This document shows positions 7,736 to 32,621 of a stretch of DNA of 34,004 nucleotides, one piece after another (the first letter of the stretch is position 1; each line of letters starts with the position of its first letter). Below the pieces are notes generated by a model, which saw only the letters and a program-made list of their open reading frames with translations, was not told where the DNA came from and searched no databases. A program made the position numbers and the translations under genes. This stretch comes from Propionibacteriaceae bacterium. GTDB taxonomy: Bacteria; Actinomycetota; Actinomycetes; Propionibacteriales; Propionibacteriaceae. The stretch is taken from positions 1 to 34,004 of the forward strand of contig JAISTC010000124.1 in NCBI GenBank assembly GCA_031272805.1, given 5' to 3'.

Positions 7736-10700
7736 TCACGCTCGGCCGCGGGCGGCCATTTCTGTGATCAGGTATTGGTGGAGGTCGATCAGGGGTTGGC
7801 CGTAGTCGTCGGCGGTTTTCTGGATCCAACCCTCGGGTGTCAGCCACCAGCTCGCCACGTTGTCGTCGAACGCCAGGTCGAACAGGTGGCCGATCTGGGC
7901 GATGTGGGACGCGCCCGTGATCTCGACCAGGACCTCGACGCGGCGGTCGAGGTTGCGGTGCATGAGGTCGGACGAGCCGATCATGACCTGCGGGTGGCCG
8001 CCGTTGCCGAACCAGAACAGCCGGGAGTGCTCGAGGAAGCGGCCCAGGATCGAGCGGACGCGGATGTTCTCCGACAGTCCGGGGATGCCGGCGCGCAGCG
8101 CGCAGATGCCCCGCACCCACAGCTCGACCGGCACGCCCGCCTGGCTGGCCCGGTACAGCGCGTCCATCGTGGCCTCGTCCACGATCGAGTTGACCTTGAG
8201 GCGGATGTGGCCGGGGATGCCGGAGCGGTGCAGTTCGATCTCGTGCTCGATTCGCTCCAACAGCCCGTTCCTGATGCCCAAGGGGGACACGAGGAGGTGG
8301 TTGTAGCGCGTGCCGCCGACGACCGTGGCCGACGCCAGCGAGTTGAACAACCTGTGCACGTCCGCCGTGATCCCCGGATCGGCCGTCAACAAGCCCATGT
8401 CCTCGTACTGGCGGGCGGTCTTCGGGTTGTAGTTGCCTGTGCCGATGTGGGCGTAGCGGCGGAGGACGCCGCCCTCCTCCTCGCGGATGACGAGGGCCAG
8501 CTTGCAGTGGGTCTTGAATCCGACCACGCCGTAGACGACGTGGACGCCCGCCCGCTCCAGCTTCCGCGCCCAGCGGATGTTGGCCTGCTCGTCGAAGCGG
8601 GCCTTGATCTCGATCAGCGCCAAGACCTCTTTGCCCGCCTGCGCGGCCTCGGCCAGCGCGTCCACGATCGGCGAGTCGCCCGAGGTCCGGTAGAGGGTCT
8701 GGCGGATGAGCTTGACCTGCGGGTCGGCCGCCGCCTGCTCGATGAAGCGCTGGACGGACGTGGCGAAGGAGTCGTAGGGGTGGTGGAGGAGCACGTCACG
8801 CTTCTTCAGAGCCGCGAACAGGTCCGCCGGACGGGCGGTCTCGGCCTCCGTCAGCAATGGGTTCGTCTTGGGCAGGAAGCCGGGGTACTTGAGGTCCTCC
8901 CGGTCGATGTCGGCGATGCCGAACAGGCCGCGCAGGTCGAGCGGGCCGCGGACGAAGAACGCCTCCTGCTTCGTGATGTCCAGCTCGCGGACGAGGAAGT
9001 CCAGCAATTCCGGCACGGTGCCCTCGGCCAGCTCCAGCCGCACCGGCGGCCGCCCCGGCCGCCGCCGCCCGCCGATCTCCTTTTCCATCGCGAAGAGGAT
9101 GTTCTCCGCGTCGTCCTCCTCGACCTCGATGTCCTCGTCCCGCGTGACGCGGCAGATCGTCGAATGGAGGACCGTCATGCCGAAGATCTCGTCCTGGTGG
9201 GCCGTCAGGATGTCCTCCAGCGGCACGTACCGCTCCTCCGACACGCGGTAGAAGCGCGGCAGCACGTCCGGCACCTTGACGCGCGCGAACAGCTTCACGC
9301 CGGTCGCCGGATTCTGCTCCTGCACGATCAGGTTGAGGGCGCGGGCGGAGAGGTGGGGGAAGGGGTGGCTCGGGTCGATCGCCAGCGGCGTCAGGATCGG
9401 GAAGATGCGGTCGCGGAACAGCGCGTCGAGGCGCTGGCGCTCCGGCGGCGTCAGCTCGTCCCAGTGGAGGATCTGGATGCCGGCGGCGGCCAGCTCGGGG
9501 CGGATTTCCTCGGTGAAGATGCGGCCCTGCTCGGCCATGAGGTCGCGCGTGGTCGACAGGATCGCCTCGTGCAACTCGCGGGGGAGGAGGCCGGACGTGC
9601 CGGGCTGGGCCATGCCCGCCTCGATGCGGCGCTTGAGACCGCCGACCCGGACCATGAAGAACTCGTCGAGGTTGGAGGAGAAGATCGCCAGGAAGCGCGC
9701 CCGCTCCAACAAGGGCACGCGCAGCCGGTCCTTCGACAGGTCGAGCACGCGCGAGTTGAACGCCAGCCAGGACAGCTCCCGGTCGAGGTACGGCGCGCCC
9801 TCCAGCCCGGGAACGGCCGGGCCGGCCGTCACGGGCGTGTCGGGCGAATACGGTTCCGGCGGCGGGACGGCGGGCGGCGTCAACGTCACGCGGGGCGCGG
9901 GCGGGGCGGCCTCGGCCAGGTCGGCCGGGAGGTCCGGCACATCCACGATCAGCGCCGGGCCGTCGTCGTCCGTCGGGTCGGAGTCGTCGTCGGGGATGTC
10001 GGCCAGCGCGGGGTCAGTCGGTTCAGGCGTTGCGAGCGTGACGGGCGGCGCTGGGGTGGGCGGGGCTGCGGGTGTGGCGGGGGTGGGCGGGGCGGTGTGG
10101 GTGGGGACGCGCGTCGGCGTGACCAGCGCGGCGATCGCCGCCGCGGCGCTGGGGCGCAGCGGTGTGGTGGGGGGGATGGTGTCTGCCGTCATCCGGCGCT
10201 CAGTTGCCGGATCGGTGGGGGGTTGTTCGGGGGCGGCCGCGGTATCAGGTGCCGCGGGCTCTGGCTCTTCTGGGCGGCCACGGTGTCGGGCCCCGTGGCT
10301 GTCGCTCGTTCCTCGCTCCGTAGCCACGGTGCCCGACCCCATGGCCTCAGGCCCCGCGGCCTCCTCGACGGCCTCGGGTGCGGGCTGGGGGGCGGCCGCG
10401 GTATCAGGTGCCGCGGGCGGCGCTCCTTCCTCGCTGGCCGCGGCGCCTGGCACCTCGGCCGGGGCTGGCGCCTCGGCCGGGGCTGGCGCCTCGGCCTGGG
10501 CTGGCGCCTCGGTCTCGGGCTCGGCGGGGAGTTCGGGGGGGAGGGCGAGGCGCAGGGTGTGGTCGACGGGGCCGCGGACCTGGGCCGGGGGGACCCACTG
10601 GGTCGGGTCGGACTCGATGATGTCCAGCTCGTCGAGCAGGTTCGGCTCGGCGTAGCGGGGGGCCGGCTCGGCGGCCGACAGCGCGCTGGCCGCGCTGGCG

Positions 10701-13189
10701 GCGTCGAACGGCGACGGGCCGGTCGTGAACTCGATCGTGACCTCGGGCAATTGCGCGTAGTCCGGCCCGGCCTCGGCCGGCGCCTTCGGGCTGAGCAGCG
10801 AGGGGGCCACGGGCGCGCCAGGCAGCGGCTCGGCCAGGTCGACGGGCCAGGGCGGGAGGTCCGGGGAACTGGGCGCGGCCGGGGCGGCCGGTGGGGTCGG
10901 TGCGGCCGGGGCCGGGGGCGTCGGGGCGAGCGTGGACAGGAGGTCGGCGGCCCAGTCGGCCGTCGCGGCGGCGGAGGCGCGGGCGGCCAGGCCCGAGATG
11001 GCCGCCTCCTCGTGCGCCGACGGCGCCGTCACGGCGGGCGAGTCGGCTGGGCTGAGGTCGGGCAGCGCGGCTTGCTGCCAGGCCGGCGGGACGGCGAACG
11101 GCGCGGGCTCGGCCGCGGGCTCCGGCGGCACCCACGAGGTGGGCACGGCGTACGTCCGGTCGGTCGGCAGGAGGTCGGCCGGCGCGGGCCAGGCCGTCTC
11201 ACGCCAGTCGGCCAGCGGGTCCGCGGCGGCTTGGGCGAGCCTGGTGTCTCCCAGGACGGCCGCGGTATCAGGTGCCGCGGGCCGCGCTCCTTCGTCGCTG
11301 GCCGCGGCGCCTGACACCTCGGCCTGGGTTGACGCCTCGGCCAGGGCGGCGGCGGTCATCGTGGCGGGGAACATGAAGGGCGTGGCCGCGGGTGCGGCGG
11401 GGGCGGACGGGGTCAGCCAGTTGGCCGTGGGGGTGGCCCAGGGGGTGTCACGCGGGGCGGCCATGGGGTCGGGTCCCGGGGCGACCACAGGCAGAGCTGG
11501 CTCCGTGGCCACGGTGCCCGACCGCGTCGCCGCGGGGGTGGCCGCGCTGAACCACGGGTCTGGTGGGGCGGCCGCGGCGGCAGAGGCCGTGGGCCGCGCT
11601 GCCTCGTCGCTGGGCGCGGCGCCGGACACTCCGGCGTCGGCGGCCGGCGCCGTGGGCGGCAGCGGCAGGGGCAGGAAGGGGGTGGGCGCGGGGCTGCGCG
11701 GGGACAGGGGAACGAAGCGGTCCCGACCCTTCGGGTCGGTTTCGCCCAGCGGCAGGGGGGTGAACTTGACGGCCGGAGCGGCGGGGGTGGGCGTCGTCGC
11801 GCCGCCCGGCATGATCGGCGTCCAGCCCGATGACACGGCGCTGACCCACTGGGCCGAGCCGGGCGCGGGCGTGTCGTGCCAGCCGGCCGCGACCGCCGAC
11901 GCGGCGGGGCGTGGGGCGGGTTCGGCCGGGGCGAACCAGGGGGACGCGTCCCCGGCGGGAGGGGTGGCGGGGGCAGCGGAGAGAGTGGCCACGCCTGGCC
12001 CCGCGGCCAGGCCTGACCCTGAGGTGGCGGCTGAGCCGATGGGTGCGGCGACCGGCGGAACGGACCCCGTGACGGGGGCGGCGGGGGGAGTGCCCACGGT
12101 GCCCGACCCCAGGGCCAGGCCCGAACCCAGGGCGGCGCCTGACCCGAAGGCCACGCCCGACCCTGTGGTCACGCCCGCCCCGACGGCCGCCGTGACCGGC
12201 GGAACGGAGCCCGTGACGACCGGCGCAACGGAGCCCGTGACCGCTGCAGTGGAGTGCAGCGCGGCGGACGCGGCGGCCGTGGGATCGGCGTAGAGGACGT
12301 CGCGGCGGCTGACCCAGAAGCCGGACGAGTCGTAGAGGTGGACGACGGGGGCGTTCGAGCCCTCGACGTAGAGGATGACGTAGCGGAGGCCGGCGGCGGC
12401 CAGGTAGTCGATGCCGGCCTCGAGCAGCGAGCGGCCGAGGCCCTTGCCCGCGAAGCTGGGCGACACCGCCAGGACGTAGACCTCGCCGACGGACTCGCGG
12501 CCCTCGGCGCGGTGGATCTTGGTCCAGTGGAAGCCGACGATGCGGCCGGACGACAGCTCCTCGGCCATGAGCAGGCCGGCCGGGTCGAACCAGTTCGCCG
12601 TCAGGCGGACGGAGAGGTCCGAGCGGGTCCACTGGCCCTGCTCCGGGTGCGTGGCGAAGGCCGCGCTGTTGACGAGGAGGAGCGCGTCGCCGTCGGCCGG
12701 TTGGAACGGCCGGATGCGGACGGGGAGGTCGGGCGTCGTGGGCTTGGGCGGGTGGCGGTTGAGGTCGCGCGTCATCTGGAGGAGCTCGCGGGCGGGGGCC
12801 AGACCGTGGCCGGCGGCGAAGCTCTGGGCTGCGGCCAGGTGCCCGAAGCTCCAGAAGCGCGCCTCCGGGTCGGTGGCCAGCCCGGCCTCGAGGAGGGCGG
12901 AGCCGACGCCCTGGTGGCGGTGGGCGGGGGCCACGACCAACTGGCCCGTGTGGGCGGCGTCGAGTTGGGCGTAGCCGGCGAGCGCGCCGTCGTCGGCCGG
13001 GACGAGGAAGTGGGTCACGGGGCGGGACGGGCGGGTCCCCGTCGGGCTGATGGCGAACAGGGCGTCGTCGTTGAGCGGGCCGATGCCGTCGGCGGCCGCG
13101 GCCGCCCTCGCCAGGGCGTGGACGCCGGAGGCCTCGGCCGTCGTCAGGACCGGGACCGTGGTGACGCGCCGCGCGCGTAGCTCTGCCAT
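7736..13189 (-). CDS. mshD-ppk1: Mycothiol synthase domain fused in frame to polyphosphate kinase 1 through an 830-residue linker
   Basis: One uninterrupted frame of 1817 codons. Residues 1 to about 300 are MshD, two GNAT domains with acetyl-CoA motifs RHQGVGSALLEAGL and AGKGLGRSLLEAG; MshD acetylates Cys-GlcN-Ins in the last step of mycothiol synthesis. Residues about 302-1128 are an Ala/Pro/Ser/Thr/Glu-rich, probably disordered linker carrying repeat elements. Residues about 1130-1817 are a full-length PPK1 (YLDRELSWLAF onward) with histidines H1581 (YAHIGTGNYN) and H1744 (LMHRNLDRR); PPK1 makes polyphosphate from ATP. In relatives these are separate neighbours. MshD has no stop codon of its own, so it must read into the linker. 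PPK could also start separately, for example at the ATG at 10192, but no strong ribosome site precedes that codon. The ATG at 13189 follows TAGTCT by 11 bases. Confidence 0.8.
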   Translation of the reverse strand: MAELRARRVTTVPVLTTAEASGVHALARAAAAADGIGPLNDDALFAISPTGTRPSRPVTHFLVPADDGALAGYAQLDAAHTGQLVVAPAHRHQGVGSALLEAGLATDPEARFWSFGHLAAAQSFAAGHGLAPARELLQMTRDLNRHPPKPTTPDLPVRIRPFQPADGDALLLVNSAAFATHPEQGQWTRSDLSVRLTANWFDPAGLLMAEELSSGRIVGFHWTKIHRAEGRESVGEVYVLAVSPSFAGKGLGRSLLEAGIDYLAAAGLRYVILYVEGSNAPVVHLYDSSGFWVSRRDVLYADPTAAASAALHSTAAVTGSVAPVVTGSVPPVTAAVGAGVTTGSGVAFGSGAALGSGLALGSGTVGTPPAAPVTGSVPPVAAPIGSAATSGSGLAAGPGVATLSAAPATPPAGDASPWFAPAEPAPRPAASAVAAGWHDTPAPGSAQWVSAVSSGWTPIMPGGATTPTPAAPAVKFTPLPLGETDPKGRDRFVPLSPRSPAPTPFLPLPLPPTAPAADAGVSGAAPSDEAARPTASAAAAAPPDPWFSAATPAATRSGTVATEPALPVVAPGPDPMAAPRDTPWATPTANWLTPSAPAAPAATPFMFPATMTAAALAEASTQAEVSGAAASDEGARPAAPDTAAVLGDTRLAQAAADPLADWRETAWPAPADLLPTDRTYAVPTSWVPPEPAAEPAPFAVPPAWQQAALPDLSPADSPAVTAPSAHEEAAISGLAARASAAATADWAADLLSTLAPTPPAPAAPTPPAAPAAPSSPDLPPWPVDLAEPLPGAPVAPSLLSPKAPAEAGPDYAQLPEVTIEFTTGPSPFDAASAASALSAAEPAPRYAEPNLLDELDIIESDPTQWVPPAQVRGPVDHTLRLALPPELPAEPETEAPAQAEAPAPAEAPAPAEVPGAAASEEGAPPAAPDTAAAPQPAPEAVEEAAGPEAMGSGTVATERGTSDSHGARHRGRPEEPEPAAPDTAAAPEQPPTDPATERRMTADTIPPTTPLRPSAAAAIAALVTPTRVPTHTAPPTPATPAAPPTPAPPVTLATPEPTDPALADIPDDDSDPTDDDGPALIVDVPDLPADLAEAAPPAPRVTLTPPAVPPPEPYSPDTPVTAGPAVPGLEGAPYLDRELSWLAFNSRVLDLSKDRLRVPLLERARFLAIFSSNLDEFFMVRVGGLKRRIEAGMAQPGTSGLLPRELHEAILSTTRDLMAEQGRIFTEEIRPELAAAGIQILHWDELTPPERQRLDALFRDRIFPILTPLAIDPSHPFPHLSARALNLIVQEQNPATGVKLFARVKVPDVLPRFYRVSEERYVPLEDILTAHQDEIFGMTVLHSTICRVTRDEDIEVEEDDAENILFAMEKEIGGRRRPGRPPVRLELAEGTVPELLDFLVRELDITKQEAFFVRGPLDLRGLFGIADIDREDLKYPGFLPKTNPLLTEAETARPADLFAALKKRDVLLHHPYDSFATSVQRFIEQAAADPQVKLIRQTLYRTSGDSPIVDALAEAAQAGKEVLALIEIKARFDEQANIRWARKLERAGVHVVYGVVGFKTHCKLALVIREEEGGVLRRYAHIGTGNYNPKTARQYEDMGLLTADPGITADVHRLFNSLASATVVGGTRYNHLLVSPLGIRNGLLERIEHEIELHRSGIPGHIRLKVNSIVDEATMDALYRASQAGVPVELWVRGICALRAGIPGLSENIRVRSILGRFLEHSRLFWFGNGGHPQVMIGSSDLMHRNLDRRVEVLVEITGASHIAQIGHLFDLAFDDNVASWWLTPEGWIQKTADDYGQPLIDLHQYLITEMAARGRA
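10235..10346 (+). repeat. Half B element joined to a full A element inside the MshD-PPK linker
   Basis: From 10235 the sequence reads GGCCGCGGTATCAGGTGCC, the left arm of a B element. From 10276 to 10346 it is a 71-bp A element: arms of the form GGCCAYGGKGTCGGGCMCC flank a centre with GCTCGTTCCTCGC. On the coding strand the A element reads [20 protein letters not shown], and the frame is kept. Near-identical DNA recurs at 14658, 28431, 29202 and 30274. Confidence 0.85.
10394..10504 (+). repeat. B element (67 bp) followed by 18-bp tandem repeats, inside the linker
   Basis: The B element is 10394-10460, opening GGCCGCGGTATCAGGTGCC and closing GGCACCTCGGCC. Its coding-strand peptide is PGAAASEEGAPPAAPDTAAA. 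It runs into an 18-bp unit (CACCTCGGCCGGGGCTGG and variants starting CGCC) repeated at 10451, 10469 and 10487, which encodes Ala-Pro-Ala-Glu-rich sequence. The tandem unit begins with the closing arm of the element, suggesting that slippage at that arm lengthened the linker. Confidence 0.8.
11258..11324 (+). repeat. B element inside the MshD-PPK linker
   Basis: A 67-bp copy from GGCCGCGGTATCAGGTGCC to GACACCTCGGCC with centre GCTCCTTCGTCGC. Coding-strand peptide: SGAAASDEGARPAAPDTAAV. It differs from the copy at 10394 at only a few positions. Confidence 0.85.
11569..11636 (+). repeat. Diverged B element inside the MshD-PPK linker
   Basis: GGCCGCGGCGGCAGAGGCC, centre GCTGCCTCGTCGC, then GGCGCCGGACACTCCGGC. 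It keeps the outline of a B element with mutated ends, and reads SGAAPSDEAARPTASAAAAA in the gene frame. It looks older than the copies at 10394 and 11258. Confidence 0.6.
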
Positions 13190-13312
13190 GATGGTCCACC
13201 AGACTAGTCGGCAACTTGCCTGACGACGCTTATCCGGGGCTTCCAGCGGCCCGACCTTGAAGCACGAGTTGACGGTCTGGGAGCCCGCGCCGAGCCGACG
13301 GGGTCACGCCCG

Positions 13313-13963
13313 CTACGGCCGGACGGCGAAGCGGTAGCCGACGTTGCGGACCGTGCCGATCAGCGCCTCGTGCTCGGGGCCGAGCTTGGCGCGCAGCCGC
13401 CGGACGTGGACGTCGACTGTCCGCGTCCCGCCGTAGTAGTCGTAGCCCCAGACCTCGGCCAACAGGTGTTCGCGCGAGAAGACGCGGCCGGGATGGAGCG
13501 CCAGGTACTTGAGGAGCTCGAACTCCGTGTACGTCAGCTCGAGGGGCTGGTTGTCGAGGACGACGGAGTAGGCCGCCTCGTCGATGAGCAGGCCGCCGAC
13601 CTGGATGACCTCGGGGTTGGACTCGGGCGGCGCGGCCAGGATGCGCAGGCGCGCGTCGTACTCGGCCGGGCCGGCGCCGTCGAGGATGAAGTCCGCGCAG
13701 TTCCAGTCCGGCGAATAGACGGCCAGGCCACCCTCGGCGAGGATGGCCAGGCGGGGCACGACGATGCCGGCGGAACCGAACATCTGACAGACCGACTTGG
13801 CGGACACGAGGTCGTCACGCGCGTCGACGATGACCACGTCCGCGCCGGCCGAGTCGGTCAGGACCTGGTCGTGGGACCCGCGCACGGTCACCTGGTGCGG
13901 CAACAGGGACAACGGAGGCAGCGGATTGGCCGACCGGTCCGTGATGAGCAGAATGGCTGCCAC
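13313..13963 (-). CDS. glnR: GlnR-like winged-helix response regulator
   Basis: This 216-residue OmpR/PhoB-type regulator starts at a GTG preceded by AGGAGG. The receiver-like half (residues 1 to about 115) has VVIVDARDD but little of the usual phosphorylation pocket, as in orphan GlnR regulators. The C-terminal winged helix (about 125-216) has LELTYTEFELLKYLALHPGR, FSREHLLAEVWGYDYYGGTR and VDVHVRRLRAKLG. In actinobacteria such proteins control nitrogen uptake and assimilation genes. The next gene downstream encodes MshD, as in Mycobacterium tuberculosis (Rv0818-Rv0819), which supports the assignment. A 123-base gap separates it from mshD. The regulon cannot be inferred from this window. Confidence 0.85.
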   Translation of the reverse strand: MAAILLITDRSANPLPPLSLLPHQVTVRGSHDQVLTDSAGADVVIVDARDDLVSAKSVCQMFGSAGIVVPRLAILAEGGLAVYSPDWNCADFILDGAGPAEYDARLRILAAPPESNPEVIQVGGLLIDEAAYSVVLDNQPLELTYTEFELLKYLALHPGRVFSREHLLAEVWGYDYYGGTRTVDVHVRRLRAKLGPEHEALIGTVRNVGYRFAVRP

Positions 13964-13987
13964 CGCCCCTCCTTTCCCAATGACCGA

Positions 13988-13993
13988 ACAATA
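13988..13993 (-). promoter_or_regulatory. Candidate -10 box for the GlnR-like regulator
   Basis: On the minus strand TATTGT lies 24 bases before the GTG start, with TTAGGT about 18 bases further upstream as a weak -35. AGGAGG then sits in a short leader. The region upstream holds a B element at 14047. Confidence 0.4.
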
Positions 13994-14046
13994 GTGCGTC
14001 CGGCGGGCTGAACCTAAGCGTGGGCAGGCAGGGAGTGTGTGGGGTC

Positions 14047-14134
14047 GGCCGCGGTATCAGGTGCCCTCGCCCGGGCCCGTTCCTCGCCAGGGCCAGGGCG
14101 CCTGACACCTCGGCCTGGGCCTGACACCTCGGCC
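14047..14134 (+). repeat. B element plus a duplicated closing arm, between glnR and dtd
   Basis: The full element is 14047-14115 (69 bp): GGCCGCGGTATCAGGTGCC, centre CCGTTCCTCGC, closing GGCGCCTGACACCTCGGCC. The last 19 bases, TGGGCCTGACACCTCGGCC, are repeated at 14116-14134. It ends nine bases before the stop codon of dtd, so it would be the 3' hairpin of the dtd transcript and could act as its terminator or as an mRNA-protecting structure. Confidence 0.85.
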
Positions 14135-14143
14135 TGGGCCGGG

Positions 14144-14617
14144 TCACGCTTCCAGGATCAGTGTGACCGGGCCGTGGTTGACCAACTCCACGTCCATCAG
14201 CGCGCCGAATTGGCCGGTTTCCACGTGCGCGCCCAGGGTTCTCAGCGTGGTCACGAGGTGGGCGACCAGCGGCTCGGCCAGCGCGGCCGGCGCGGCGTCG
14301 GACCACGACGGGCGGCGGCCCTTCTTGGTCCGGGCGTACAGCGTGAACTGGGAGATGACGAGGAGCGGCGCGCCGACCTCGGACGCCGACACGTCGCCTT
14401 TCGACCAGCCCTCGGCCGCGTGGTCCGCCGCCGTCAGCTCGCCCGCGTCGAGCAGGCGCAGGTCCCACACCTTGGCCGCCAGCTTCTCCGCCGTGGCCGG
14501 GGTGTCGCCGTGCGTGACGCCGACCAGGACGACCAACCCCGGCTCGGGCAACCGCCCGACGACCGCCCCGTCAACCCGGACCTCCGCCCGTGACGCCCGC
14601 TGAACCACCATGCGCAT
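14144..14617 (-). CDS. dtd: D-aminoacyl-tRNA deacylase
   Basis: A 157-residue Dtd that removes D-amino acids wrongly attached to tRNA. It has the family start [17 protein letters not shown], the active-site segment [17 protein letters not shown] and the C-terminal GPVT motif ([12 protein letters not shown]). The length is normal. The ATG at 14617 lies 7 bases after a TACCCT box with no ribosome site, which suggests a leaderless transcript. It is divergent from the 42-residue membrane protein gene, and an A element lies between their promoters. Confidence 0.93.
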
Positions 14618-14624
14618 GGCTGTG

Positions 14625-14630
14625 AGGGTA
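14625..14630 (-). promoter_or_regulatory. -10 box for leaderless dtd
   Basis: TACCCT on the minus strand is followed by 7 bases and then the ATG at 14617, placing the transcript start at or beside the start codon. No Shine-Dalgarno sequence fits in this gap. Confidence 0.5.
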
Positions 14631-14657
14631 ACCGACCGGGGCGGCGACCGGGTCCCA

Positions 14658-14758
14658 GGCCACGGTGTCAGGCCCTGTGGCTGTCGCTCGTGCCTCGCTC
14701 CGTAGCCACAGTGCCCGACCTCCTGGCCTTCGTGGCCACAGCGCCCGATCCCGTGGTC
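14658..14758 (+). repeat. A element plus a third arm unit, between divergent dtd and small-ORF promoters
   Basis: The full A element is 14658-14728 (71 bp), GGCCACGGTGTCAGGCCC, a centre with GCTCGTGCCTCGC, and a closing arm ending CTCCTGGCC. A further arm-like unit, GTGGCCACAGCGCCCGATCC, follows at 14732-14758. The element fills almost the whole gap between the two -10 boxes at 14625-14630 and 14765-14770, so it occupies the -35 and upstream zone of both promoters. Confidence 0.85.
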
Positions 14759-14764
14759 AGCAAC

Positions 14765-14770
14765 TACCAT
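14765..14770 (+). promoter_or_regulatory. -10 box for the leaderless 42-residue membrane protein
   Basis: TACCAT is followed by 7 bases and the GTG at 14778. There is no ribosome binding site, so translation would start from the 5' end of the transcript. Confidence 0.5.
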
Positions 14771-14777
14771 CTTCCCT

Positions 14778-21933: not shown

Positions 21934-22104
21934 GCCGCGGTGTCGGCCGATGCGAGACACCCCCCCGCTTTGTCATCCCACCCCCCTTTGTCATCCCGGC
22001 GAAAGCCGGGATCTTTCCCTGATGGTCGACCACATCGCTCCAAGATCCCGGCGTTCGCCGGGATGACAAGGGGGCCGGGATGACAGGGGGCCGACACCTC
22101 GGCC
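21934..22104. repeat. Palindromic hairpin pair framed by B-element arm fragments
   Basis: GTCATCCCGGCGAAAGCCGG starts at 21990 and an inverted copy ends at 22067 (GATCCCGGCGTTCGCCGGG...), so the two form one large dyad as well as two small hairpins. The block is flanked by GGCCGCGGTGTCGGCC at 21934-21949 and GGCCGACACCTCGGCC at 22089-22104, which are mutually inverted fragments of B-type arms. It fills the whole 208-base gap after nahK and probably terminates that transcript. The nitroreductase promoter lies just downstream. Confidence 0.75.
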
Positions 22105-23632: not shown

Positions 23633-23642
23633 GGGCCAGATA

Positions 23643-23823
23643 GGCCGAGGTGTCGGAGGCCGCGGCCTTGGCGACGAAGGAGCCCGGGCGGCGGCCTCCG
23701 ATACCGCAGCCGGTGGAGTTCGTCTTCGGTCGGCCGCGGTATCAGGTGCCCCCGCCTGGGCTCGTTCCTCGCCAGGGCGGGGGCGCCTGACACCTCGGCC
23801 TGGGCGTCCGATACCGCGGCCGG
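23643..23823. repeat. Array of two full B elements and a half, in opposite orientations
   Basis: 23643-23711 is a reverse-oriented B element whose inner arm reads CGGAGGCC / GGCCTCCG on the element's forward strand. 23732-23800 is a forward copy with CAGGTGCC / GGCGCCTG and 69 bases identical to the reverse complement of 32452-32520. A half arm (TCCGATACCGCGGCC) follows at 23807. The array fills the gap between the DUF805 stop and tRNA-Gly, ending about 45 bases before the tRNA. Confidence 0.9.
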
Positions 23824-25524: not shown

Positions 25525-25546
25525 GGCCACAGCCGCGGCCGCTGTC

Positions 25547-25560: not shown

Positions 25561-25572
25561 GGTTGGGGCACA

Positions 25573-26592
25573 ATGGGGCCCATGGCGGTCAGCATTGAGG
25601 ATGTGGCCCGGGCGGCGGGGGTGTCCACCGCGACGGTGTCGCGCGCGCTGCGCGGTCTGCCCCACGTGACCCCGTCGACCCGCGCCGCCGTCCAGGCCAT
25701 CGCGGACGAGCTCGGCTACACCGCCTCGCCCTCCGCGTCCGCCCTCGCGTCCGGCCGGACGCGCACGGTCGGCCTCGTTGTCCCCGCCATCTCCCGCTGG
25801 TTCTTCGCCGAGTGCGTGGAAGGCGCCGAGGTCACGCTGCGCGCGGCCGGGTTCGACGCCCTCCTCTACTCGCTGCCGGACACGGCCCGCCCGCGCGGCC
25901 CGTTCGACGCCGCGGTCCTGCGCCGGCGCGTCGACGCGGTCCTCGTGGCGTCCATGTCGTTCAGTGCGGGGGAGACCGCGGCGCTGCGCTCGCTCGGCGT
26001 GCCGGCCGTGTTCGTCTCCGTCCCCCAAGAGGGCTTCGCCCACGTCGGCATCGACGACCTGGCCGGCGCCGTCGCCGCTACGCGCCACCTGGTCGGCCTC
26101 GGCCACCGCGTCATCGCCCACATCGGCGGCGGCCGCCACGACGCCCCCAGTTCCCCGACCGCGCGCCGCCGCGCGGGCTGGCGCCAGGTCCTGGCCGAGG
26201 CGGGCCTGGAGCACGGGGCCGACCTCGACGCCGAGGCCGACTTCACGGCCGAGGACGGCGCCCGCGTGACGGCGGCGCTGCTCGACCGGCGGCCGGACCT
26301 GACCGCCGTGTTCGCCGCCTCGGACGAGATGGCGATGGGGGCGCTGCGGACCGTGCGCGAGCGGGGCTTGGAACCCGGGCGCGACGTCTCGGTCATCGGC
26401 TTCGACGGCCACACGCTCGGGTCCGTCCTCGGGCTCACCACCATCGCCCAATCCGCCCACGACCAGGGGTCACGCGCGGCCGAATACCTGCTGGACGTCC
26501 TGGCCGGCGCCCCCGACAACGCGCCCACGGCCCTGTTCCCCACGGAGCTGGTGGTGCGCCAGTCGACCGGCCCTGTGCCCGTGGGATCCTGA
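25573..26592 (+). CDS. LacI-family transcriptional regulator, probably of the maltose-type operon
   Basis: A 339-residue LacI/GalR repressor. The helix-turn-helix and hinge are SIEDVARAAGVSTATVSRAL followed by an ALASGRTRTVG hinge. The periplasmic-binding-like effector domain starts at VGLVVPAISRWFFAECVEG and ends with SVIGFDGHTLGSVLGLTTIA. ATG 25573 and ATG 25582 are both possible: the second gives the common MAVSIEDVA beginning and lies 7 bases after CACAAT. It converges on the HAD/GH65 gene of the sugar-uptake operon, the likely target, with a maltose- or disaccharide-derived inducer as inference. Confidence 0.88.
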   Translation: MGPMAVSIEDVARAAGVSTATVSRALRGLPHVTPSTRAAVQAIADELGYTASPSASALASGRTRTVGLVVPAISRWFFAECVEGAEVTLRAAGFDALLYSLPDTARPRGPFDAAVLRRRVDAVLVASMSFSAGETAALRSLGVPAVFVSVPQEGFAHVGIDDLAGAVAATRHLVGLGHRVIAHIGGGRHDAPSSPTARRRAGWRQVLAEAGLEHGADLDAEADFTAEDGARVTAALLDRRPDLTAVFAASDEMAMGALRTVRERGLEPGRDVSVIGFDGHTLGSVLGLTTIAQSAHDQGSRAAEYLLDVLAGAPDNAPTALFPTELVVRQSTGPVPVGS

Positions 26593-26613
26593 CAAGAGTG
26601 TTGTCATGCCAGC

Positions 26614-26905
26614 GCCGCTGTCATCCCGGCGCCGCTGTCATCCCGGCGCCGCTGTCATCCCGGCGAAAGCCGGGATCTTTCCGCGGGTCGTGGTGCCTGC
26701 TCGCGGCGGCACGCACGGCTTTCGAAAAGAAGTGTTGTCATCCCGGCGAAAGCCGGGATCTTTCTGCGGGCCGTGGTGCCTGCTCTCGCCGGGACGACAC
26801 GGCTTGTGAAAAGAAGTGTTGTCATCCCGGCGAAAGCCGGGATCCTTCTGCGGGCCGTGGTCGATCAGCACTCGGGGGAAGATCCCGGCTTTCGCCGGGA
26901 TGACA
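26614..26905. repeat. Tandem array of GTCATCCCGGC repeats between convergent genes
   Basis: Three exact 17-bp units GCCGCTGTCATCCCGGC occur at 26614, 26631 and 26648. Full hairpins GTCATCCCGGCGAAAGCCGG then start at about 26653, 26735 and 26820, spaced 82-85 bases and linked by a semi-conserved spacer containing GCGGGCCGTGGTGCCTGCTC or variants. The last full unit is inverted (GATCCCGGCTTTCGCCGGG, 26881-26905). The block fills the 350-base gap between the LacI-type gene and the GH65 gene and could end transcription from both sides. No gene is seen in it. Confidence 0.85.
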
Positions 26906-26942
26906 AGGGTTTGGGATGACACGCAGGATGACGTTCCTCGGC

Positions 26943-29900
26943 TCAGGAGGGCATGTTGTGGCGCGTCAGTTTTCCTGCGATCGTCAGGGGGAAGGACAAC
27001 GTGGTCCAGGCGGGGGGTAGGCGGGGGTCGAGCGTGGGGTGCCGGCCGGAGTCACGGAGGCCGCCGAAGCCTTGGACCAGGGCCAGCCAGACGCCGCCGG
27101 CCGAGGCGATGTGGACGCCGTCGCGGGTGTTGGCGTGGCGGTCCTCCAGGTCCGTGGCCAGGGCTGCGCGGAACAGCTCGAGCGCCCGGTCGGGCTGGCC
27201 GACCTCGGCCGCGAGGATCGCCTGGGCGGCCGCCGACAGCGTCGAATCGCCCGTCGTCAGCGGGTCGTAGTAGGCGAAATCCGCCTGCTTCTGCGCCGCC
27301 GTGAAGCGGTCCGACTGCAGCAGCAGGGCGAGCACGACGTCCGCCTGCTTCAGCACCTGGTGGCGGTAGATCGTCAGCGGGTGGTAGTGGAGCAGCAAGG
27401 GCCGGCGCTCCGGCGGCGTGCCCGCGATGTCCCAGCGCGGCAGGTCGAGGAAGCGCGCGTCCTGCGGGTGGACGCCCAGCGCCTCGTCCCAGCCGATGAA
27501 CATCGCCTCCCCGGCCCTCCGCCAGGCCGCGGTCTCCGCCGCGTCGATCCGCCCGGACGCCTCGCCCCAGTCGGCGGCCAGCAGGAGGTTGTGGCGGGCC
27601 ATGACATTGGTGTAGAAGTTGTCGTCCACGATCGCCGAGTACTCGTCGGGCCCCGTCACCCGCTCGATGTGGAACTGGCCGTCCCGGCCGAAATGCCCTA
27701 GTCCCAGCCACAGTCGCGCCGTCTCGGCGACCAACTCCAGCCCTGGTCCGGCGCGGAACTCGGCGTCCCCCGTGACGGCCGCGTACTGGCCGGCCGCGAA
27801 CGCGATGTCCGCGCCGAGGTGGAACTGGGCCGTGCCCGCGGGGAAGTACGCGGAGGCCTCCTCGCCGTTGACCGTCCGCCAGGGGAACAGCGCGCCGGGC
27901 AGGTCGAGGTCACGCGCGTGGCGGCGCGCGGCGGGCAGCATCGCGTGGCGGAACTCGAGGAGCGCGCGGGCGCGCGGCGGGTCCGTGTACGTCAGGAACG
28001 GCAGGACGAAGATGTCCGAGTCCCAGAAATAGTGGCCGGAGTAGCCCGAACCCGTCAGGCCCTTGGCCGCCACGCCGTGGCCGGCGCAGCAGGCGGTGGC
28101 CTGCGCCAGTTGGAACAGGTTCCAGCGGATGGCCTGTTGGAGTGTGGGCGTGTCTGGCCCGGCCTCGAGCGTGACGTCGGAGCGGTCCCAGAAGTCGGCC
28201 AACCAGTCGCGTTGCTCGGCCACGAGGGCCGCCAGCCCGGCCTCACGCGCCTCGTCCAGCGTCGTCACGACCGTGGCCACGAGCGCGTCACGGTCGGCGT
28301 CGGCCGCGCCGACGACCGCGAGCGAGCCGTCCGCGACACCGAGCGGTGGGAGCGTGGGCGTGGCGTACGCGGCAAAGGTTGTCAGGAGCAGCCTCTGGCC
28401 GGGGGCGAGGGCGGGGAACGTGTGGGGGTCGGCCACGGTGTCAGGCCCCGTGGCTGTCGCTCGCAGAGCTCGCTCCGTAGCCACGGTGCCCGACCCCCTG
28501 GCCTCCGGCCCGAGGCCAGGGGGTCGGGCACGCGGGCTACGGAGCGAGGCACGCGCGATCGCCCGTGGGCCGGACACCGTGGCCGCCCCACCGCCTGACA
28601 CCGTGGCCGACCCACCATCTGACACCGTGACGGTGGTGTGCCACGCGTAGGCCAGCGGCAGGCGGGAGTTCCGGCAGGTGAACGTCTGGACGTCATAGTC
28701 GCCGCGCCTGACGACAGGCCCAGGCTCCAGCCCGCCGCCCGCGGCCGTCTCAGCCCGCCGCGGGTCCGCGGTGCCTTCCCCGACATCCCCTGCCCTGTCA
28801 ACCTGGGCGACCGCTCGGTCATCCTGAGCCACCGCTCTGTCATCCTGAACTCCTGCTCTGTCATCCTGAGCGCAGCGAAGGATCTCTCCCGAGGGCAGGT
28901 CGTCCCCCGTGCCATCACATCCCGGTGTCATCCCGGCGGAAGCCGGGATCTTTGCCTGGATGACAGTGGTGGGCGGGGCGGGCAGAGATCCTTCGCGGAG
29001 CCTGTCCTGAGCGTCAGCGAAGGGCTCAGGATGACAAAGGGGCGTGATCTCGTGGGTCACGATGACCAGGTTCTGGCGCGTCAACGACACCAGCCGCGTG
29101 GTCGTCACGGCCACGGGGGTTCCGTCCGGCAGCGCCAGCACCGTGTCCTCCGTCACCGTGCCCCGGCGGAAGTCCAGAACCCGGCGCTGCGTGGCGGGGT
29201 CGGCCACGGTGTCAGGCCCCGTGGCTGTCGCTCGCAGAGCTCGCTCCGTAGCCACGGTGCCCGACCCCCTGGCCTCGGGACCCGTGGCCTGACTGAGGCC
29301 AGGGGGTCGGGCACGCTGGCTACGGAGCGAGGAACGAGCGATCTCCTGCGGGCCTGACACCGTGGCCGCCCCATCGCCTGACACCGTGGCCGACCCGGCC
29401 CACAGGACCGCCAGCGGCTGCGGCCAGCCGCTGGCGTCGGGGACCGGCTGGATGGTCTGGCCGACTCGCGCCAGGCCGTAGGCCGCTTCCGGGTGGTGGA
29501 TGGCGTAGGTCTCGTGGAAACCGTTGACGAACGTGGCCTGGTCCCGCGCCGGGTCGCCCGCAGCCCGCACGCCGATGTACCCGTTGGCCACGGCAAACAG
29601 CGTGGCCGAGCGGGGGTCGGCCGGGCCGACGGCGTGGAGCGCCCACGGGTCGATCCCGCCGGTCCAGCGCGCCAACTCCTCCAGCCCGCGGATGACGACG
29701 TCGGCGCCCGCCGCGCGCAGCGCTCCCGCGCCCGCCCCCCGGTCCACTCCGACCACGAGCCCGAACGCCCCGGCCCGCCCCGCAGCGACCCCCGCCAGGG
29801 CGTCCTCGACGACGACGGCCCGGTCCGGCATGACGCCGAGGCGGCGCGCGGCGAACAGGAACGTGTCGGGCGCCGGCTTGCCGGGGAGCCCCTCGTCGGC

Positions 29901-30503
29901 CGCCACCACGCCGTCCACGACCAACTCGAAGAAGCCTGTCAGACCGGCCCCGTCCAGGACCGCCCTGGCGTTGCGCGAACTGGACACGACCGCCAACCGC
30001 AGCCCGCGTGACCGCAACTGCTCCAACGCCGGCAGCGTGCCCGGGAACGGCGGCACGCCCGTCCGCGCCAGCAGCGCGGCGAACGTGGCGTTCTTGCGGT
30101 TGCCGAGCGCGCAAATCGTGGCGTCGCCCGGCGGATCGGTCGGGTCGCCCCAGGGGAGTGTGAGGCCGCGTGACGCCAACACCGCCTGGATGCCGTCATA
30201 GCGGGGACGGCCGTCGATGTGGGCGTAGTAGTCCGCGTCGGTGTAGTCGGGGACCACGGGGGCGTCCTCGGGCGGCCACGGTGTCGGGCCCCCTGGCTGT
30301 CGCTCGTTCCTCGCTCCGTAGCCACGGTGCCCGACCCCCTGGCCGCCGCTCCCGTGGCTGTCGCTCGTGCCTCGCTCCGTAGCCACGGTGCCCAACCCCG
30401 TGGCCTCCGGGCCGCGGAATAGCTCGGACCAGGCGGCGCGGTGCAGTGTGGCGGTGTCCAGGAGGACGCCGTCGAGGTCGAACAGGATGGCGGTCGGGTC
30501 CAT
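26943..30503 (-). CDS. HAD phosphoglucomutase / GH65 disaccharide phosphorylase fusion interrupted by in-frame repeat elements
   Basis: A 1186-residue fusion. Residues 1 to about 300 are a beta-phosphoglucomutase-type HAD domain (FDLDGVLLDT, nucleophile D9 and acid D11). Residues about 300-1186 are a glycoside hydrolase family 65 phosphorylase, with the general acid E954 in VTGPDEYSAIVDDNFYTN and a phosphate-site TTGDSTLS. Phosphorolysis of maltose, trehalose or kojibiose would give beta-glucose-1-phosphate for the HAD half. Repeat DNA is translated at about residues 33-77, 370-434, 486-569 and 623-691, all in frame and all in loops or the N-terminal beta domain, none in the catalytic barrel. 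The ATG lies two bases after the malG stop, so this is the last gene of the transporter operon. Activity with the inserts is untested. Confidence 0.82.
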   Translation of the reverse strand: MDPTAILFDLDGVLLDTATLHRAAWSELFRGPEATGLGTVATERGTSDSHGSGGQGVGHRGYGARNERQPGGPTPWPPEDAPVVPDYTDADYYAHIDGRPRYDGIQAVLASRGLTLPWGDPTDPPGDATICALGNRKNATFAALLARTGVPPFPGTLPALEQLRSRGLRLAVVSSSRNARAVLDGAGLTGFFELVVDGVVAADEGLPGKPAPDTFLFAARRLGVMPDRAVVVEDALAGVAAGRAGAFGLVVGVDRGAGAGALRAAGADVVIRGLEELARWTGGIDPWALHAVGPADPRSATLFAVANGYIGVRAAGDPARDQATFVNGFHETYAIHHPEAAYGLARVGQTIQPVPDASGWPQPLAVLWAGSATVSGDGAATVSGPQEIARSSLRSQRARPPGLSQATGPEARGSGTVATERALRATATGPDTVADPATQRRVLDFRRGTVTEDTVLALPDGTPVAVTTTRLVSLTRQNLVIVTHEITPLCHPEPFADAQDRLREGSLPAPPTTVIQAKIPASAGMTPGCDGTGDDLPSGEILRCAQDDRAGVQDDRAVAQDDRAVAQVDRAGDVGEGTADPRRAETAAGGGLEPGPVVRRGDYDVQTFTCRNSRLPLAYAWHTTVTVSDGGSATVSGGGAATVSGPRAIARASLRSPRARPPGLGPEARGSGTVATERALRATATGPDTVADPHTFPALAPGQRLLLTTFAAYATPTLPPLGVADGSLAVVGAADADRDALVATVVTTLDEAREAGLAALVAEQRDWLADFWDRSDVTLEAGPDTPTLQQAIRWNLFQLAQATACCAGHGVAAKGLTGSGYSGHYFWDSDIFVLPFLTYTDPPRARALLEFRHAMLPAARRHARDLDLPGALFPWRTVNGEEASAYFPAGTAQFHLGADIAFAAGQYAAVTGDAEFRAGPGLELVAETARLWLGLGHFGRDGQFHIERVTGPDEYSAIVDDNFYTNVMARHNLLLAADWGEASGRIDAAETAAWRRAGEAMFIGWDEALGVHPQDARFLDLPRWDIAGTPPERRPLLLHYHPLTIYRHQVLKQADVVLALLLQSDRFTAAQKQADFAYYDPLTTGDSTLSAAAQAILAAEVGQPDRALELFRAALATDLEDRHANTRDGVHIASAGGVWLALVQGFGGLRDSGRHPTLDPRLPPAWTTLSFPLTIAGKLTRHNMPS
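28431..28635. repeat. Inverted pair of A elements plus arm fragments inside the GH65 gene
   Basis: A forward A element (28431-28503, 73 bp) is followed ten bases later by a reverse one (28514-28584). Two lone closing arms follow (GCCTGACACCGTGGCC near 28593 and TCTGACACCGTGACGG near 28619). Translated in frame it gives SGGGAATVSGPRAIARASLR and later [20 protein letters not shown]. The pair closely matches the pair at 29202-29367 in order, orientation and spacing. Confidence 0.88.
28797..29045. repeat. Cluster of GTCATCCTGAG and GTCATCCCGGC repeats inside the GH65 gene
   Basis: Half units with GTCATCCTGA occur at about 28816, 28837 and 28858, the last extended to GTCATCCTGAGCGCAGCGAA and onward. 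Next is a hairpin GTCATCCCGGCGGAAGCCGG at 28927, then an inverted long unit from GATCCTTCGCGG (28986) to GGCTCAGGATGACA (29022-29036). The gene frame reads through as CHPEPFADAQDRLREGS, VIQAKIPASAGM, and repeated AQDDRAV units. These peptides are familiar translations of widespread repeats, usually annotated by mistake; here they sit inside a conserved enzyme frame. Confidence 0.85.
29202..29393. repeat. Second inverted pair of A elements inside the GH65 gene
   Basis: Forward copy 29202-29274 (73 bp), reverse copy 29297-29367, then a lone closing arm GCCTGACACCGTGGCC at 29376. The forward copy has the same altered centre (CTCGCAGAGCTCGC) as the one at 28431, whereas other A copies have GCTCGTTCCTCGC or GCTCGTGCCTCGC. 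The two pairs therefore share a recent common source. The frame reads ATVSGPQEIARSSLRSQRAR and [20 protein letters not shown]. Confidence 0.88.
30274..30405 (+). repeat. A element with an added half, inside the HAD domain
   Basis: The 71-bp A element is 30274-30344. Six bases later a further centre-plus-closing-arm unit runs to 30405. On the coding strand this is about residues 33-77, including [20 protein letters not shown] and then GHRGYGARNERQPGG. It interrupts the HAD cap region between AAWSELF and VVPDYTDADYYAHIDGRPRY, which are adjacent or nearly so in ordinary phosphoglucomutase-type HAD proteins. Confidence 0.88.
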
Positions 30504-30505
30504 CG

Positions 30506-31423
30506 CTACCCCTTGACCGAGCCGGCCAGGAGCCCGCGGACGAAGAAGCGTTGCAGGGCTAGGAAAACAACCATTGGCACGATCATAGAGATGAACGCGC
30601 CGGCCGACAGGAGGTGCCAGGCGGAGCCGCGCGAGCCGACCATGTCCGATAGCCGGGCCGTCAACGGCGCGACGGCCGGCGTGTTGCCCGCGAACGCCAG
30701 CGCCACCAGCAGGTCGTTCCAGACCCAGAGGAACTGGAAGATGGCGAACGACGCGATCGCCGGGGTCATCAGCGGCAGGACGACGCGGAGGAAGATGCGG
30801 ACGTGGCCGGCGCCGTCGACGCGCGCCGCCTCGATCAGCGATCGCGGGATCTCGCGCATGAAGTTGTGGAGCAGGAAGACGGCCAAGGGCAGGCCGAACA
30901 TCGTGTGGGAGAGCCAGAGGACCCAGTAAGTGCCGTTCAGCCCCCACTTCACGTACTGCGTCAGCAGCGGGATCATCGTCACCTGGATGGGCACGACCTG
31001 GAGCGTGAAGACGGCGACGAAGAGGACGTGGCGGCCCTTGAAGTCGATCCAGGCGAAGGCGTAGGCGGCGAGCAGGGCCAGCGTGATGGGGATGATCACG
31101 CTGGGGAGGGTCACGACGAACGAGTTCGTGAAGTACGTGCCGAGTTGGTTCTGGCCGGACAAGGCCGTCTCGTAGTTGCCGAGGCCGAACTCGGACCAGT
31201 GGCTCGGCAACAGGGCTTCCCACCAGCCGGTCTTCGTGATGGCCCGGACGTTGTCGCGGAAGCTCGTCACGAACAGCCCGACCGTCGGCACCGTCCAGAC
31301 TACGGCGATGACCAGCGCCAGTGCCGACGCCCACGGCGACGACAGCCGGTTCTTGGCCTCGGCCAGCCTCTCCGCCCGGCGCCGCGCCCGGGCGGACGGA
31401 ACCTTCAGCGTGACCTCGCTCAT
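30506..31423 (-). CDS. malG: Maltose-type ABC transporter permease, MalG family
   Basis: A 305-residue inner-membrane permease with six predicted helices and the EAA loop EAARVDGAGHVRIFLRVVLP (near residue 205) that contacts the ATPase. The N-terminal cytoplasmic stretch is basic (SARARRRAERLAEAKNR). Its ATG overlaps the malF stop (ATGA). The ATPase is absent, as is normal in actinobacteria, where a shared MsiK-type ATPase usually serves such systems. Together with the binding lipoprotein and the GH65 fusion it should import and phosphorolyse an alpha-glucoside. Confidence 0.9.
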   Translation of the reverse strand: MSEVTLKVPSARARRRAERLAEAKNRLSSPWASALALVIAVVWTVPTVGLFVTSFRDNVRAITKTGWWEALLPSHWSEFGLGNYETALSGQNQLGTYFTNSFVVTLPSVIIPITLALLAAYAFAWIDFKGRHVLFVAVFTLQVVPIQVTMIPLLTQYVKWGLNGTYWVLWLSHTMFGLPLAVFLLHNFMREIPRSLIEAARVDGAGHVRIFLRVVLPLMTPAIASFAIFQFLWVWNDLLVALAFAGNTPAVAPLTARLSDMVGSRGSAWHLLSAGAFISMIVPMVVFLALQRFFVRGLLAGSVKG

Positions 31424-32406
31424 CGGATGTCCTCCGCCAACTTGAGTTGCCGCACGTTGTACACGATGACCGGCGCGATGATGACGAACAGCAGGACGGC
31501 CAGGGCGGCGCCGAGGCCCTTGTTCTGGTTCGTGAAGGACTGGGTGTAGAACTCGTTGGCCACAACTGATGTGTCGTAGTTGCCGCCGGTCATGGTGCGC
31601 ACGACGTCGAAGGCCTTGAGGCTGGTCATGGCCACGGTCGTCAGCACGACGACGACCGACGGGCGGATCATCGGCAGCGTCACGTGGAGGAACAGTTGCC
31701 GCGTCGTGACGCCGTCGACGCGCCCGGCCTCGACGATGTCCTCGGGGATCGCCTTGATCGCGGCGGCCAGGACGGTCATGGCGAAGCCCGCCTGGATCCA
31801 GACCATGACGACGATGAGGAACAGCGTGTTGGTCGGCGCGTTCATCAGCCACTGGGGCGCGTACTCGGCGGTCGAGCCGAACAGGTGGGCGAGGGCCAGG
31901 TACGCCTGGGAGAGCAAACCGACCTTGTTGTCGTAGACGAACTTCCAGATGATCGACGCGCCGACCATCGAGATCGCCATGGGCAGGAACAGGAGGATCT
32001 TGGCCGCCTTCTCGAAGCGTGTCCGGTCGACCAGCGCGGCGTAGAGGAGGCCGAGGCCGGTCGCGCCGATGGGCACGAGGACGACCCACGTCACGGTGTT
32101 GCGGAGGACCACGAGGAAGCCGGACTCCGTGAAGAGCCGGGCGTAGTTGGCGAAGCCGACCGGCGTCGTCCCGGCCTTGTCGTAGAAGGAATTGCGGATC
32201 GTCACGAGGGCCGGGTAGACGAGGCCGAACGTGACGGCGAGGAGCACGGGGCCGAGGAACCCGGCCACGGCCGCCCACTTCGGCAGCCGCTTCGGCAGCG
32301 TCAGCAGCCCCAGGATCGCGCCCATCGCGGCCACGAACAGCGCGATCGCGATGAGCATGAGGAGCAACTTCTCGCCCACCCCGGAGGGGTGGAGTAGCAG
32401 ATCCAT
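31420..32406 (-). CDS. malF: Maltose-type ABC transporter permease, MalF family
   Basis: A 328-residue permease starting at an ATG preceded by AAGGAAG. It has an N-terminal hydrophobic anchor, a second pair of helices (AVAGFLGPVLLAVTFGLVYP) and the EAA loop EAGRVDGVTTRQLFLHVTLP near residue 235. Upstream in-frame codons read through repeat sequence and are rejected as starts. It is separated from the binding-protein gene by about 220 bases filled with B elements, while malF, malG and the GH65 gene are packed tightly. Confidence 0.9.
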   Translation of the reverse strand: MDLLLHPSGVGEKLLLMLIAIALFVAAMGAILGLLTLPKRLPKWAAVAGFLGPVLLAVTFGLVYPALVTIRNSFYDKAGTTPVGFANYARLFTESGFLVVLRNTVTWVVLVPIGATGLGLLYAALVDRTRFEKAAKILLFLPMAISMVGASIIWKFVYDNKVGLLSQAYLALAHLFGSTAEYAPQWLMNAPTNTLFLIVVMVWIQAGFAMTVLAAAIKAIPEDIVEAGRVDGVTTRQLFLHVTLPMIRPSVVVVLTTVAMTSLKAFDVVRTMTGGNYDTSVVANEFYTQSFTNQNKGLGAALAVLLFVIIAPVIVYNVRQLKLAEDIR

Positions 32407-32425
32407 GTGGCTTCCTTGGGTGTGA

Positions 32426-32520
32426 GGCCGTGGTGTGAGGCCGAGGTGTGAGGCCGAGGTGTCAGGCGCCCCCGCCCTGGCGAGGAACGAGCCCAGGCGG
32501 GGGCACCTGATACCGCGGCC
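32426..32520 (-). repeat. Three 13-bp tandem arms and a full B element between malE and malF
   Basis: GGCCGTGGTGTGA (32426), GGCCGAGGTGTGA (32439) and GGCCGAGGTGTCA (32452) are consecutive 13-bp copies. The third opens a full 69-bp reverse B element (32452-32520) identical to 23732-23800. The element's arms pair over about 28 bases around the loop at CGTTCCTC, so it is a strong hairpin in the transcript. Confidence 0.9.
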
Positions 32521-32552
32521 GGTGGGTGGTTCTTGTGTTCTGTTCTGCTGTC

Positions 32553-32621
32553 GGCCAAGGTATCTGACGCCGCCGCCCGGGCTCGTTCCTCGCCTGGGCC
32601 GCGGCATCAGACACCTCGGCC
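32553..32621 (+). repeat. B element with distinct arms, next to the malE stop codon
   Basis: A 69-bp copy in which the arm reads GGCCAAGGTATCTGACGCC and the closing part GGCATCAGACACCTCGGCC: TCTGACGCC pairs with GGCATCAGA, where other copies have TCAGGTGCC with GGCGCCTGA. It ends nine bases from the malE stop codon. The 32 bases between this and the previous element hold nothing recognisable. Confidence 0.88.

Follow-up and report, generated by a model that had tools for sequence, protein, structure and literature searches.

In the available text of PMC3733652, REPs of the GTAG type have stems of 5-13 bp and those of the CGTC type stems of 8-9 bp (Table 1 therein), and both heterodimers and intragenic copies of REPs are described. 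The same text describes TIRYT genes, which are flanked by inverted repeats, some of them carrying GGGGWSAS, and TIR families that are moderately abundant. According to the available portion of PMC6006769, 20 of 26 TIRYTs fall into subclass 2.1 of TnpAY1, with HTH-like C-termini; this subclass is the second largest among the Y1 enzymes (14.9% of strains), and that portion reports no REP-like sequences beside its genes. The E. coli enzyme TnpAREP is described as cleaving between C and T in the accessible part of PMC8266576.

In this study, we report the characterisation of a palindromic repeat family from a Propionibacteriaceae bacterium, starting from a stretch of 34,004 nt (the window), and conclude that the family is real and abundant, that it consists of mobile hairpins, and that these are most likely moved by a transposase of the TIRYT type which the genome encodes outside the window. 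A first-pass annotation of the window had proposed one superfamily of palindromic elements in two classes, A and B, with shared ends and centre, and had suggested as checks a search of the genome and its relatives, a covariance model and a search for a RAYT-like or other transposase; the search for a RAYT was successful. No publication describing the family was found in a literature search that lay mostly outside the subscription journals.

The window corresponds to contig 106 in a 239-contig, 2.96-Mb assembly with a completeness of 88.8%. A covariance model (R1) was built from 37 elements and run on the window plus a further 34 stretches of the genome, together 470,609 bases. After removal of overlaps 130 elements were kept; 16 weaker rows that were free of overlap had been put forward manually, and other weak rows were excluded. 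Genes were predicted for the placement analysis using our own simple codon-based finder, which called 87% of the sequence coding. The genome-wide search for transposases was directed at the Y1 family. The features are listed in Table 1.

Table 1. Elements and host genes of the window and the Y1 transposase gene of contig 30 (window positions, except where a stretch is named; R1, covariance-model score in bits)
Feature	Position	Strand	R1	Remarks
B1-like 5' half (head only)	10235..10258	+		exact end motif, no centre after it; in the presumed MshD-PPK ORF
A, 71 nt	10276..10346	+	84.0	ssDNA fold z -4.9 (+), -7.7 (-); in ORF 7736-13189(-)
B1, 67 nt	10394..10460	+	61.0	in ORF 7736-13189(-)
B1, 67 nt	11258..11324	+	64.8	in ORF 7736-13189(-)
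Degenerate A	11459..11531	+	29.9	in ORF 7736-13189(-)
B1, 69 nt	14047..14115	+	82.2	intergenic
A, 71 nt	14658..14728	+	73.8	intergenic
B2	23643..23711	-	77.0	head-to-head with B1 at 23732, 20-nt spacer
B1	23732..23800	+	86.1	partner of B2 at 23643
A, 73 nt, variant loop	28431..28503	+	63.5	in HAD-GH65 gene
A	28514..28584	-	54.4	tail-to-tail with 28431 copy; in HAD-GH65 gene
A, 73 nt, variant loop	29202..29274	+	63.5	in HAD-GH65 gene
A	29297..29367	-	62.5	tail-to-tail with 29202 copy; in HAD-GH65 gene
A	30274..30344	+	75.3	5' part of HAD-GH65 gene
A, altered 5' end	30350..30419	+	30.5 (over 30350-30390)	tandem with 30274 copy; centre with 1 mismatch; end 30419 extended by eye
B1	32452..32520	-	86.1	head-to-head with B2 at 32553, 32-nt spacer
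B2	32553..32621	+	81.4	partner of B1 at 32452
Host ORF: GNAT domains, Pro/Ala-rich linker, polyphosphate kinase	7736..13189	-		Pfam
Host gene: HAD hydrolase + glycosyl hydrolase family 65 (HAD-GH65)	26943..30503	-		Pfam; six elements in three places
C30 Y1 gene	L009:8952-9704	-		250 aa; contig 30

Chance similarity as the source of the repeats was ruled out by shuffled sequences and reversed controls. In the window, 35 end motifs (at most one mismatch) and 15 centres (at most two mismatches) were counted against 3.2 expected in either case, and neither number was reached in any of 100 shuffles. Across the 2.96-Mb genome the exact centre was found 264 times. The A core (at most two mismatches) gave 237 matches and the B core 179, half copies being included in both counts; the reversed control of each gave 0. 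The repeats first seen in the window are real and form part of a large family. No place in the 470,609 bases matched both the A-core and the B-core patterns. Of the 68 A cores in these bases 63 lay inside mapped elements, as did 49 of the 52 B cores; the remaining ones we take to be half copies of the loop-to-tail kind described below.

The 130 mapped elements comprise 75 A, 30 B1 and 25 B2, class B being split in two by its arms (B1, GGCCGCGGTATCAGG...; B2, GGCCGAGGTATC...). The covariance model detected 16 elements in the window, one incomplete and one degenerate, and these are nine A and seven B rather than the five and eight counted in the first-pass annotation. A 17th, weak row at 21989-22068 proved to be another palindrome and was rejected. 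Mapped elements are mostly 71 nt (A) or 69 nt (B). The sizes given earlier, 71-73 bp for A and 67-69 bp for B, agree with the window copies (A: five of 71 nt, three of 73 nt including the degenerate one, and a single copy of 70 nt; B: five of 69 nt and two of 67 nt). The half copy at 10235..10258 is, we infer, a remnant. Two other palindromic families, GTCATCCCGGCGAAAGCCGGGATC and GTCATCCTGAGCG...GGATC, also occur in the window (21979-22089, 26643-26937 and 28787-29050), with 65 and 22 matches, respectively, on both strands of the 470,609 bases.

Each element is a hairpin in which position i pairs with the i-th position from the end over 25 positions, enclosing a loop of 19-21 nt with GCTCGTTCCTCGC. 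Classes A and B have in common the ends GGCC(A/G)CGGT(G/A)TC and a 13-nt loop motif. The centre said to be common to both classes is so in general, and is exact in six of the 15 places where it was matched in the window, with a variant in the 73-nt copies at 28431 and 29202; two of the 15 matches, at 7651 and 25796, are not elements. The term superfamily is apt for structure, loop and ends; the arms of A and B may or may not share descent.

In the model alignment 87.2% of paired cells were complementary as against 78.2% in shuffles, and the arms co-varied beyond the level of shuffled alignments: the covariation score was 0.294, compared with 0.141 in shuffles (sd 0.009) and no more than 0.109 when the structure was slid, and 13 pairs were changed on both sides (10.1 in shuffles). 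Of five covariation measures one showed no excess, namely the count of further pair types (23, shuffles 24.3). Part of this signal reflects the difference between A and B. Within A alone (49 sequences), pair 19-53 is CG in 20, GC in 16 and TA in 9, and pair 20-52 is GC in 27 and CG in 17. Folding of three elements as single-stranded DNA, on both strands, gave z values of -4.9 to -8.6.

The foot of the hairpin was examined for marks of known systems. The majority consensus of the 12 positions in front of the element and the six behind it spells neither an unpaired GTAG nor an unpaired CGTC; GTAG occurs in A only internally, 3' to the loop. The tail is followed by T in 47 of 50 B elements and in 41 of 68 A elements, giving a C-T step whose resemblance to the TnpAREP cleavage site is only suggestive. 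The exact TIRYT motif GGGGWSAS was present in 0 of 121 elements. The related word GGGGWSGS was found on the complementary strand of 65 of 69 A (consensus GGGGTCGG), 0 of 27 B1 and 1 of 25 B2; the A consensus is one base off GGGGWSAS and also one base off the GGGGACGG of the repeats of many neighbouring families. These A matches count as one observation, since the A copies share descent, and the resemblance to either motif may be due to chance, a GGGGWSGS-type word being frequent in the sequence (618 times in 470,609 bases, about one per 760, A copies included).

Many elements are arranged in pairs. Neighbours at most 120 nt apart form 21 head-to-head, 10 tandem and two tail-to-tail pairs; 42 of the 130 elements sit in head-to-head pairs, and single elements are common. 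The head-to-head pairs that contain B are B1+B2 in 11 of 12 cases and A+B2 in one, and neither B1+B1 nor B2+B2 was seen. The two B2/B1 pairs of the window, 23643-23800 and 32452-32621, are composite units. A 71-nt stretch of the B1 at 32452 is the exact reverse complement of 23731-23801 (an inverted repeat of 100%), and the pair at 23641-23804 was found near full length on at least 13 other contigs with 84-91% identity, which indicates that the B2/B1 dimer recurs as a unit. Tandem arrays of A loop-to-tail halves with a period of 45-46 nt were observed at L016:5987-6149 and L035:55-213.

Elements with a loop-to-tail half (centre plus 3' half) immediately after them were seen at 12 places, six of them being A followed by a B half. 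Such places could be products of replication slippage, template switching or gene conversion amplifying hairpins without a dedicated enzyme, and template switching is also able to yield paired arm changes. We regard this explanation of the family as very unlikely, for it accounts neither for the spread over many contigs and insertion in the middle of unrelated genes, nor for the recurrence of the B2/B1 pair described above and the copies in another genus described below.

With respect to genes, 106 of the 130 elements were intergenic, six lay across a gene edge and 18 were within predicted genes, in both orientations; 10 of these 18 belong to two window genes, and the window stands out in having 10 of its 16 elements inside ORFs. 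The intergenic elements were distributed over convergent, tandem and divergent gaps as 13, 53 and 21, against 12.9, 49.2 and 24.9 expected from gap length (for divergent gaps, 19.3 expected from gap number), with 19 further intergenic elements at contig ends falling outside these classes. An RNA-level function selected at gene ends, as terminator, mRNA stabiliser or regulatory hairpin, would fit the strength of the hairpins and the position of elements in tandem gaps, where 38 of 53 are closer to the 3' end of the upstream gene. It would also fit the mispairs, which are mostly A-C on the strand read and hence G-U on the other (nine of 11 class/position cases with at least five sequences, by our own count, the cases being non-independent). 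Placement near the chance expectation nevertheless counts against a terminator role, and the 21 elements in divergent gaps mean that gene ends are unnecessary; elements within ORFs in both orientations and the lack of matches in 18 congeners point the same way. A known RNA family for A or B was sought and rejected, the Rfam search of the window at gathering thresholds returning two tRNAs only. An RNA function as the reason for the family is thus, in our judgement, quite unlikely.

The intragenic copies of the window are inserted in frame. The reading frame of the HAD-GH65 gene is open through all six elements, and the long insertion that its protein carries between LF and DYY, at the site of the 30274 element, was absent from all eight translated congeners. 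The other palindromes at 28787-29050 are likewise in frame within this gene. In the ORF at 7736-13189, whose GNAT domains we take to be mycothiol-synthase-like (MshD), the linker carries four elements and the half-copy remnant; the closest congener has the same GNAT-polyphosphate kinase fusion, uninterrupted (L086:841-6666), with a long Pro/Ala-rich linker. The D-Tyr-tRNA deacylase gene of this closest congener (G008, L086:7990-8230) has an in-frame repetitive insertion of its own, REPDTATPNQEE..., which is absent from the window gene.

Among the genomes searched, the family looks almost confined to a single species. No A or B element was found in 39 relatives (18 of the same genus, five of the same family and 16 of the same order; completeness 64-100%, at most 127 candidates scored per genome). 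A wider search of 391 genomes of the order, in which 13 candidates per genome were scored under stricter filters and rare copies could escape, gave matches in four: the genome itself, one strong case (G198) and two weak ones, which on inspection were unlike an A or B element. G198 belongs to another genus and has two B2 copies on one contig (L129:1-910, G198 contig 50). Each of these copies lies just past the end of a duplicated reading frame. The copies are probably not contamination, since the contig bears other repeats that are also found on many G198 contigs; among the matches listed between it and the genome studied here, the element alone is shared. We read them as a transfer between genera. 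The nearest named relatives of the genome, Propionibacteriaceae metagenome bins with 74% and 73% identity in polyphosphate kinase, are presumably from termite guts, to judge from their isolate names. Phage records had no match to a stretch of contig 30 and plasmid records none to a B pair, and the head-plus-centre pattern was in none of the viral contigs among the matches listed.

The earlier statement that the window is free of a transposase stands at the level of Pfam: none of the 24 genes predicted in it was identified as a transposase by these scans, and two matched no family. In the whole genome, Pfam Y1_Tnp identified four genes, on contigs 29, 30, 191 and 229. The gene on contig 30 (C30) has A elements on both sides, at 8828-8898(+), 9813-9883(-), 9932-10002(+) and 10164-10234(+) of L009. 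The nearest two are inverted, with their tails toward the gene at 53 and 108 bases, distances that fall in the range seen for inverted repeats around other Y1 genes, and form a 72-nt inverted match of 90%. The gene is also enclosed by a direct repeat of about 210 bp (L009:8712-8920 and 10043-10250, 95% identical), each copy of which ends in A. The C30 protein matches PF01797 with 51.9 bits, carries HVH and YIHRNP motifs and, with 76.5 bits, narrowly misses the cut-off of NCBIfam for RAYT (80 bits); at its C-terminus a weak HTH_23 match (E 6.1e-5, 23.2 bits) lies under the Pfam cut-off of 24.6.

The other three Y1 genes each have a different palindrome on both sides: GGGGACTGTCCCC at C29 (L029), GTGACATTGGGGACGGTTCC at C229 (L033; 52 matches in 470,609 bases) and a GTACCGGTAC-type palindrome at C191 (L032), the flanks of C191 and C29 being read by eye. 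Some 140 bases upstream of the C229 gene there is one A, enclosed by arms of that gene's own repeat. By position and by this exclusion, A goes with C30. None of the four genes found in the assembly, 88.8% complete, is flanked by B. Matches containing GGGGAC between the two flanks were counted by us at 25 of 30 Y1 loci, with fixed flank windows that were off target for L109, L113 and L122 and began late for L124; the inverted match at C30 is A. In a tree of 23 of 30 transposase rows, seven being left out as lacking the motif in the form searched, the C30 protein groups with those of C29 and C191 (96/94). Homologs of C30 were found in 18 of 198 genomes of the family, and within the genus only in the genome itself and in G014, which has five C30-type enzymes without A or B. 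G198, taken as one of the 198, has B2 copies and yet is outside those 18.

The position of C30 between A copies could be a coincidence, since A is common and another cluster of four elements within less than 1 kb occurs in the window (28431-29367). A clean empty site at the DNA level was found in none of 34 candidate rows, 22 of which came from one A between the arms of another repeat; nor was a target duplication seen. Mobility of a non-autonomous, REP-like kind, as first proposed, agrees with the spread over many contigs, the absence from 18 of 18 congeners, the largely extragenic placement, the inverted dimers and the in-frame insertions. The conserved inverted ends, fixed length and many copies would suit classical MITEs of a DDE transposase, encoded elsewhere or lost, with GGCC(A/G)CGGT(G/A)TC as terminal inverted repeats; we consider this unlikely, as the entire arm is palindromic up to the loop, the loop motif is common though the arms differ, the dimers have a head-to-head layout and there is a Y1 gene bounded on both sides by A repeats.

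The reading we prefer, with a probability of roughly 0.65, is that A and B belong to the REP/TIR kind of non-autonomous mobile palindrome and that the TIRYT-type Y1 enzyme of C30 recognises, cuts and rejoins their hairpin. The C30 transposase (REP-associated, Y1, HUH, TIRYT type) would recognise the single-stranded hairpin, cut beside it and join it elsewhere. From the position of its gene we infer that this enzyme moves A, and that it may also move B through the common loop, which would be its recognition point; halves rejoined at the loop could then give new arm classes. A stricter form of this proposal, in which the enzyme reads the constant 13-nt loop and not a GTAG foot, the arms are free to change if complementary, and A, B1 and B2 arose by rejoining of halves at the loop and share one enzyme, is possible, if doubtful.

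A TIRYT-type enzyme encoded between copies of a palindrome family of about 400 cores offers a pairing that can be tested in vitro, one loop with differing arms amounts to a natural experiment in enzyme recognition, and the copies in frame are a further example of mobile palindromes borne within protein genes. In this last respect the family resembles the Rickettsia palindromic elements, as described in the available text of PMC3733652, and the likeness drawn by the first-pass annotation is borne out by the in-frame insertions; it is one of behaviour, and the present family differs in its lineage, in having 106 of 130 copies extragenic and in having a candidate transposase. With REPs, REPINs and BIMEs and their RAYTs, as far as the accessible parts of PMC3116915, PMC3733652 and PMC8266576 describe them, it shares imperfect palindromes that number in the hundreds and lie mostly outside genes, the occurrence of inverted dimers and heterodimers, and a transposase gene flanked by the repeat; unlike these REPs, A and B have a stem of about 25 bp (5-13 bp in GTAG and 8-9 bp in CGTC REPs, PMC3733652), no GTAG or CGTC foot tag, and different arm classes on a common loop. 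The TIRYT/TIRtron systems, in the available portions of PMC3733652 and PMC6006769, are like the present one in having a Y1 gene flanked by inverted repeats, some of them self-complementary, and in repeats that occur genome-wide as singles, dimers and groups (PMC3733652); the HTH at the C-terminus of their enzymes has a weak match, just under the cut-off, in C30. They differ from it in that the exact GGGGWSAS is here replaced by the one-base variant GGGGTCGG on one strand of A, in that the TIR families described are moderately abundant (PMC3733652), and in that A and B present two arm classes on one loop. Compared with subclass 2.1 as the available text of PMC6006769 describes it, the locus is set apart by a palindrome family that flanks the gene of such an enzyme.
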